A stretch of 64,000 bases of DNA. Origin: Fusibacter paucivorans. GTDB lineage: Bacteria; Bacillota; Clostridia; Peptostreptococcales; Acidaminobacteraceae. A program made the translations under genes and the position numbers. The stretch lies in assembly GCF_018390735.1 (NCBI RefSeq), contig NZ_JAHBCL010000025.1, positions 1 through 64,000 on the forward strand, written 5' to 3'. Each line of letters starts with the position of its first letter. The first letter of the stretch is position 1. Positions 13,398 to 28,768 of this stretch are shown piece by piece. The notes below the pieces were generated by a model that had not been told where the DNA came from, searched no databases, and saw only the letters and a list, made by a program, of their open reading frames with translations.

Positions 13398-13418
13398 GAG
13401 GGTGTAATTTCATATGGT

Positions 13419-13602
13419 GTTTTGGTGCACTGCTCAAGTGATAATAGGGAATCAGGTTAAATGCCTGAACAGTCCTGCTGCCGTGATGACCGAGCCTCTT
13501 TCTCAATGCCACTGAATTCTTTTGGGAAGGCGAAAGAAGCGTTGACGTCTAAGTCGGAAAACCTGCCAAAACTGACGCCGTGGTCGATGTCACGGCTACT
13601 GT
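13419..13602 (+). promoter_or_regulatory. Cobalamin (adenosylcobalamin) riboswitch
   Basis: The conserved core elements appear in order: GGTGC, AATAGGGAATCAGGT, ACAGTCCTGCTGCCGTGA, TGCCACTG, GGGAAGGCGAAAG and the B12-box-like AAGTCGGAAAACCTGCC. A GCCGTG/CACGGC hairpin follows (13576-13600), the expected kissing-loop partner. With the terminator downstream this should shut off B12 uptake when cobalamin is plentiful. Confidence 0.92.
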
Positions 13603-27888: not shown

Positions 27889-28034
27889 ACACCTTCTATA
27901 CGGTAATCGCAAGCGATAGACGGCATAAAAACATGGCGGTCTTTAAAAACTTGTGAACATTTCTTGAATTTTCAAATTAACTATACTAATTTACTAGGAA
28001 TTGTATTATAATGTCTGTAGTGGAGGTGAGCATT

Positions 28035-28346
28035 ATGTATATTGCGACGAATAAAGAAACATGCGACAAGATTAGAGAAGTCTTGGCAGCTCAAGCGGAT
28101 AAACCTCAAAATATTAGAGTTTTTATCGCGGGTATGGCTTGCAGCGGTCCGAGCTTTGGCCTTGGCTTAGATAACATCAATGACGAAGATGTTACAGAAA
28201 TCGTTGAAGGTGTTAATTTTGTACTTGAAAAATCAGTATTTGACAGCGTTGGCGAAATCAAAGTAGAGTGGGTCGGCAACGGTTATTCGGTTCAGCCGGT
28301 AAACGTTCAGCCATCTGCATGTGGTTCTTGCTCTAGCTGTGGCTAA
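28035..28346 (+). CDS. HesB/IscA-like protein, Cys form
   Basis: A 103-residue protein of the HesB-like family (relative of A-type Fe-S carriers). CDKIREVLAAQADKPQNIRV leads to FIAGMACSGPSFGLGLD with Cys36, the key residue, and the C-terminus ends CGSCSSCG, further likely metal ligands. ATG 28035 is chosen: GGAGGTGAG lies directly before it, and the longer ORF from 28011 runs through that site. A TATAAT at 28007-28012 may be its -10 box. It is followed by a terminator and then a paralogue in which Cys36 is replaced by UGA. The function is probably Fe-S or selenium-related redox chemistry. Confidence 0.85.
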   Translation: MYIATNKETCDKIREVLAAQADKPQNIRVFIAGMACSGPSFGLGLDNINDEDVTEIVEGVNFVLEKSVFDSVGEIKVEWVGNGYSVQPVNVQPSACGSCSSCG

Positions 28347-28356
28347 CAAAAATAAG

Positions 28357-28385
28357 ACGACGATCTGATGCGTCGTTTTTTTTTC
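28357..28385 (+). terminator. Terminator between the two HesB-like genes
   Basis: ACGACG (28357-28362) pairs with CGTCGT (28371-28376), followed by a run of nine or more T. Confidence 0.85.
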
Positions 28386-28416: not shown

Positions 28417-28445
28417 TTTTGTTTCACTCAGAAGTAGGGTATAAT
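28417..28445 (+). promoter_or_regulatory. Promoter of the selenoprotein gene
   Basis: TATAAT at 28440-28445; weak -35 TTTTGT at 28417-28422 with a 17-base spacer. Needed because a terminator separates the two paralogues. Confidence 0.45.
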
Positions 28446-28477: not shown

Positions 28478-28768
28478 ATGTACTTTAAATGTGATGGTGA
28501 TACCTGCGATAAAATCAGGGAGGTCCTTGAAAAACAAAAGGACAAACCGCAAAATGTTAGGATTTATATCGCGGGAATGGGTTGAGGCGGCCCAAATTTT
28601 GGTCTAGGTCTAGATCATTTGGGTGAAGAAGATATTCAAGAAAATATCGGTGGCGTCAATTTTATAATGGAAAAATACTTGTTCGATACTGTCGGGAGAG
28701 TTGAAATCAGATGGAATGGCTATGGCTATTCGATTTATGCCGATGGCGTTGGCGCAAGCAGCTGTTAG
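28478..28768 (+). CDS. HesB-like selenoprotein (in-frame UGA at codon 36)
   Basis: Reading from ATG 28478 (AAGGAGG 7 bases upstream) through one TGA gives a 96-residue protein that aligns without gaps to the HesB-like protein just upstream. Shared stretches are CDKIREVL, DKPQN, IAGM, GLGLD, GVNF and EK. The TGA (28583-28585) is codon 36, exactly where the paralogue has Cys36: GMG-U-GGPNFG against GMA-C-SGPSFG. After it the frame stays open for 60 codons with conserved residues, ending SSC. A hairpin fitting a bacterial SECIS follows the TGA at once. HesB-like selenoproteins are a described group. The alternative, a nonsense pseudogene, is disfavoured by the conservation and the hairpin. Routine ORF callers would miss or split it. 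Confidence 0.85.
28586..28626 (+). promoter_or_regulatory. Predicted bacterial SECIS element
   Basis: Directly after the UGA, CCCAAAT (28591-28597) pairs with ATTTGGG (28617-28623), and GGTCTA (28601-28606) pairs with TAGATC (28611-28616; one G-U) around a GGTC loop. The apex AGGTCT equals that of the E. coli fdhF SECIS, as I recall it. Loop distance from the UGA, about 22 bases, is in the usual range. It would recruit SelB for selenocysteine insertion. Confidence 0.75.

Follow-up and report, generated by a model that had tools for sequence, protein, structure and literature searches.

The genome of Fusibacter paucivorans contains a reading frame of 96 codons that is interrupted by a single TGA and that lies next to a homolog with cysteine at the same position. 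This locus raises the question whether the TGA encodes selenocysteine (Sec) and, if so, what a Sec and a Cys version of one protein might do side by side. It is located in the first 64,000 nucleotides of contig NZ_JAHBCL010000025.1 (assembly GCF_018390735.1), the stretch of DNA that was analysed as a whole and is here called the window. The following features are at issue:

28035..28346, + strand: Cys paralog (103 aa, Cys36, tail GSCSSCG)
28478..28768, + strand: HesB-like selenoprotein gene (96 aa, Sec at codon 36, ending in SSC), assigned by translation, alignment with the paralog and orthologs with one TGA in close genomes
28583..28585, + strand: in-frame TGA of codon 36, read as Sec and matching Cys35 of E. 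coli IscA in the alignment

A preliminary description of this DNA had proposed a HesB-like selenoprotein gene that is open but for one TGA at codon 36 and conserved beyond it up to an SSC end. Translation of 28478–28768 (+ strand) with TGA as U bore this out, as it yields 96 residues with the sole U at codon 36 and the C-terminus ...GASSC, followed by a TAG stop. Sec36 belongs to the motif GMG-U-GGP (UxGP type; U36-G-G-P), which is kept among the orthologs. A reassignment of TGA in the code of this genome was considered and rejected: of the 34 large window ORFs, 10 terminate in TGA, and since TGA is a normal stop here, the open frame is not merely due to a different code.

The Sec-gene orthologs of 11 other close genomes each have a single TGA, which occupies the same codon. 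A relative with a sense codon at this position or with random changes downstream was sought, but none of the close orthologs has a sense codon 36, and most of the changes beyond it are synonymous. The Sec gene of the window genome differs from that of a congener by 12 synonymous and 2 non-synonymous changes (7 and 2, respectively, after the TGA), and in six close pairs the dN/dS after the TGA is 0.06–0.14 and as a rule not above the value before it. These values indicate purifying selection on the codons that follow the TGA. This selection on the downstream half, together with the same single TGA in 11 other close genomes, excludes a chance arrangement. A tandem copy with a stop does resemble a fresh pseudogene, and the Sec copy is the faster evolving of the two, as the Cys copy is better conserved in 55 of 55 genome pairs (mean pairwise identity 85.0% versus 66.7%). 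One might thus take the Cys paralog to be the functional gene and the TGA copy to be its decaying duplicate, or the TGA as a sequencing error. However, the identical TGA occurs in independent assemblies of many species, other stops or frameshifts are absent, dN/dS is low after the TGA, and the SECIS hairpin described below is kept. With the TGA conserved, the SECIS retained and the downstream codons under selection, we rejected this explanation, which we consider hardly credible.

The assembly (4.43 Mb, 97.5% complete) was also searched for selA, selB, selC, and selD, the check proposed along with the original reading. Genes for all components were recovered: selA (511 bits), selB (352 bits), and selD (397 bits) are clustered on contig C4, and a tRNA-Sec gene, predicted by both ARAGORN and Rfam, is located on the same contig at a distance of about 6–10 kb. 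The Sec-decoding machinery expected alongside a HesB-like selenoprotein is thus encoded in this genome. The selD gene (L005 10478–11596, − strand) has an in-frame TGA of its own and is itself a selenoprotein gene (AGUAAK). Among relatives that are at least 90% complete and lack selB, none of 11 has a TGA-bearing homolog; in two less complete genomes (63% and 79%) such a homolog is present and selB was not detected. The selA gene was found in 21 of 21 further genomes checked, the genomes with the Sec/Cys pair included.

Besides this machinery, a structure that could direct Sec insertion is predicted immediately downstream of the TGA:

28590..28624, + strand: predicted bacterial SECIS hairpin with apical loop GGUC at 28607–28610, obtained by RNA folding under the model constraints of PMC13188914

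The bacterial SECIS model specifies a loop of 3–9 nt with a G in the first two loop positions, a spacing of 16–37 nt, and an MFE of at most −7.5 kcal/mol (PMC13188914). The hairpin of the window gene lies within these limits, with its GGUC apical loop 21 nt after the TGA and an MFE of −14.8. The best hairpin of each gene was compared with those of 200 synonymous recodings that followed the codon usage of unrelated window genes. For 60 Sec genes, the mean SECIS score was −5.8 versus −1.1 kcal/mol for the recodings and 39 of 60 had p ≤ 0.05, whereas 46 Cys genes averaged −0.4 versus −0.6 with 1 of 46 at this level; as the genes are related, the tests behind these counts are not independent. The window Sec gene alone is only moderately stronger than expected (−5.2 versus −1.5; 7/200 synonymous recodings), and comparison of its hairpin with dinucleotide shuffles gave 14–24/200. 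In 16 Sec genes of this branch GGTCTAGGTYTAGA is invariant, wobble bases included. Here the GLGL codons read GGT CTA GGT YTA with fixed wobble bases, which vary in the Cys genes; the Cys paralogs encode the identical FGLGLD peptide by other codons and have not kept the hairpin. A peptide whose coding sequence doubles as a SECIS only in the Sec copy provides a tidy natural control for SECIS selection. Judged by their nucleotide sequences, the Sec genes retain a predicted SECIS-type structure at synonymous sites far beyond what recoding would lead one to expect. With the Sec machinery present, a SECIS hairpin, and the TGA kept in every close ortholog, the proposed reading is well supported, and 28478–28768 almost certainly encodes a genuine selenoprotein of the HesB-like type already known.

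In size, fold, place of Sec, and motif the predicted protein is like the described HesB-like selenoproteins (TIGR01911/NF038090; UxGP), with which it also shares the occurrence in anaerobic Clostridia possessing the Sec trait (PMC13188914). It misses the curated cut-offs of both families, with 37 versus 66.35 bits for TIGR01911 (E 4e-9) and 44.9 versus 85 for NF038090 (E 1e-11), and has no Pfam match. Because of the missed cut-offs it is classed with the HesB-like selenoproteins only in the broad UxGP sense and is not filed as a member of TIGR01911 or NF038090. The preliminary description had seen here a gene lost by standard annotation, and the sub-cut-off NCBIfam scores, the lack of a Pfam match, and the stop inside the gene make such a loss plausible. 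The third HesB-like gene of this genome (L003 1450–1734; contig C43:7048–7251, − strand), which has its TGA in the motif GIGUGGP and adjoins a small glutaredoxin-like gene, likewise stays below the cut-offs of TIGR01911 and NF038090 (49.6 and 41) and obtained no score in the SECIS scan. It encodes a tail-less HesB-like selenoprotein, and the window gene occupies a separate branch of the tree.

The AF2 model of the Sec protein (pLDDT 91) matches SufA and IscA at Z scores of about 11, suggesting the IscA-like fold that is expected of an A-type carrier. In a profile alignment, Sec36 and Cys96 correspond to Cys35 and Cys99 of E. coli IscA, and they are the only Cys/Sec positions that are invariant over 56 homologs. 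On the other hand, the protein shares only 10–20% identity with IscA, SufA, and ErpA, has Sec in place of Cys, lacks the CGC tail, and misses the iscA, sufA, and erpA equivalog cut-offs. Of the three-Cys ligand set (C35, C99, and C101 in IscA) the Sec copy has counterparts only in its conserved U36 and C96; therefore, we do not claim A-type carrier status and infer that an IscA-fold-like ligand site is retained. The Cys copy keeps C36 and a CGSCSSC tail. The agreement of fold and ligand position with IscA, SufA, and ErpA would also fit a simpler explanation, according to which the pair would consist of ordinary A-type Fe-S cluster carriers, with Sec merely replacing Cys as a ligand and playing no separate redox role. 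This is conceivable, but we find it doubtful, as the Sec copy is devoid of the Cys-rich tail from which the remaining ligands come in both IscA and the Cys copy, and ends in a lone Cys, as do other HesB-like selenoproteins of these genomes.

Alignment of the two copies confirmed that the paralog has Cys36 and that there are no gaps up to this point. The copies are 54% identical and align without gaps on both sides of codon 36 until the Sec copy ends, beyond which the Cys paralog extends by its tail GSCSSCG. The pair had initially been regarded as a natural comparison of Sec and Cys chemistry. The side-by-side arrangement stands, but the comparison is not a clean one: 46% of the positions differ, the copies are distinguished at six sites that are fixed within each clade and by the C-terminal Cys tail, and the control regions usually differ as well. 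The order Cys-then-Sec, adjacent and on one strand, is found in 13 genomes (G000, G001, G009, G015, G017, G019, G020, G027, G029, G031, G035, G038, and G039), and in G037 both copies are at contig ends. In the Sec copy of G015 (L031/L060) the motif is degenerate, with URGL in place of UGGP. In G152 (L165, about 826–1143), the Sec gene is immediately followed by a HesB-like paralog with Ala at the Sec/Cys position (GVGADGP). The gene neighborhood gave no functional link, as the upstream neighbors vary and the commonest downstream neighbor is a convergent pullulanase-like gene. Elsewhere in the window, a cobalamin riboswitch is located at 13406–13584 (Rfam RF00174, 99.8 bits).

Three putative control elements surround the pair:

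27981..28012, + strand: conserved 32-nt element CTATACTAATTTACTAGGAATTGTATTATAAT 5' of the Cys gene, IscR type-1-like and overlapping a −10-like TATAAT, with a putative regulatory role
28354..28379, + strand: terminator-like hairpin with a T run, located between the Cys gene and the Sec gene
28440..28445, + strand: TATAAT, −10-like hexamer of a probable separate Sec-gene promoter, seen by eye and absent from the strict promoter scan

The distance between the two genes is 74–295 nt in most relatives. It shrinks to 30 nt in G031, and in G015 the Sec start overlaps the Cys-gene stop (TAATG), so that co-transcription of the pair is likely in these two genomes. Usually, promoters or terminators separate the control of the two copies, which therefore do not represent a clean Sec/Cys swap. 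Three genomes of one genus (L025, L026, and L027) share TCTTAGTCACTGTT, located about 20 nt upstream of the Sec gene's −10-like TATAAT. The element CTATACTAATTTACTAGGAATTGTATTATAAT is conserved upstream of the Cys gene across the group, G015 excepted. If at most one mismatch is allowed, the genome contains a single further copy, about 180–200 nt upstream of sufC (contig C5), and the iscR-iscS promoter has a similar stretch; the IscR of this genome is encoded on contig C3. A consensus for type-1 IscR sites is available (PMC3899308), and 15–19 of 25 positions match that of E. coli IscR in this AT-rich DNA, a scan result that on its own is not significant for most promoters. CTATACTAATTTACTAGGAATTGTATTATAAT is at most suggestive of an IscR-type operator of the Cys gene, and this copy might have joined the Fe-S (IscR/SUF) regulon.

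Methanococcus maripaludis also has Sec and Cys versions of one protein in a single genome; it switches between these isoforms, and its Cys isogenes are repressed by selenium through HrsM (PMC11097638). The copies of the Fusibacter type have diverged more than those of M. maripaludis and have no known selenium control. With this precedent, the separate promoters or intergenic terminator of most genomes and the recurrence of adjacent Sec/Cys pairs in the order could reflect mainly a selenium-dependent switch, in which the Sec gene would yield only a stub of 35 residues under selenium shortage, with the Cys gene acting as the back-up isoform. However, the fixed residue differences and the Cys tail indicate that the copies are not simple substitutes, the pair looks co-transcribed in G031 and G015, and the element preceding the Cys gene looks like a site of iron-sulfur and not of selenium control. 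We thus regard a switch of this kind as unlikely.

How the pair arose can be approached by phylogeny. In trees of about 105 columns the Cys copies and the Sec copies each form a clade of their own, and the two are sister clades, with several of the supports moderate. The nearest outgroups (L034; L032 and L033) are Sec genes that retain the Cys-rich tail, and parsimony therefore favors an ancestral Sec gene with such a tail that was duplicated before the Fusibacter group radiated. The upstream copy would then have exchanged Sec for Cys and retained the tail, and the downstream copy would have retained Sec, lost the tail, and evolved faster. A change from Sec to Cys within this family, in an organism that decodes Sec, is also known from the HesB-like protein of Desulfitobacterium hafniense, which contains a SECIS remnant (PMC1794560); here, however, a Sec copy has been retained next door. 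A Sec-containing HesB-like protein and duplication of a Sec ancestor, with the Cys twin as the sister copy, in our judgment very probably give the best joint explanation of the sequence evidence.

In the wider tree, the Sec/Cys label requires 12 changes, at least 9 of which are forced by well-supported branches. Further adjacent Sec/Cys pairs exist in G002/G022, G156/G158/G166/G239, G164/G188, and G227, and several of them join inside their own lineage with high support. The trees indicate that similar adjacent pairs have originated independently elsewhere in the order, and this recurrent origin was the least expected result of the analysis. No description of adjacent Sec/Cys HesB pairs and no paper linking Fusibacter with selenoproteins were found in a literature search that had most subscription papers outside its reach.

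According to the mechanism we propose, SelB with Sec-tRNA would insert Sec at UGA36, guided by the hairpin about 5–39 nt downstream, and the product would be a full-length HesB-like selenoprotein of 96 residues with the IscA/ErpA fold. Sec36 would take the place of the iron or Fe-S ligand Cys35 of IscA and might form with Cys96 a selenolate-thiolate site for either metal binding or selenenylsulfide cycling; the AF2 model has low confidence in the final residues (mean pLDDT about 50) and does not decide between the two. Most likely, the two copies now have related but distinct roles. More tentatively, and with considerable reservation, Sec HesB-like genes of Fusibacter-like bacteria and of other members of the order may repeatedly have been duplicated into Sec/Cys neighbors in which the Cys copy came under iron-sulfur control and the Sec copy acquired another role that is specific to selenium. 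This would amount to a recurrent division of labor and not to the provision of a back-up isoform. HesB-like selenoproteins became known two decades ago and, to our knowledge, have been assigned no function. Adjacent Sec and Cys copies that are usually under separate control and have arisen repeatedly offer a genetic handle on this function, as either copy is open to deletion and the selenium and iron dependence of the two copies can be compared within one organism.
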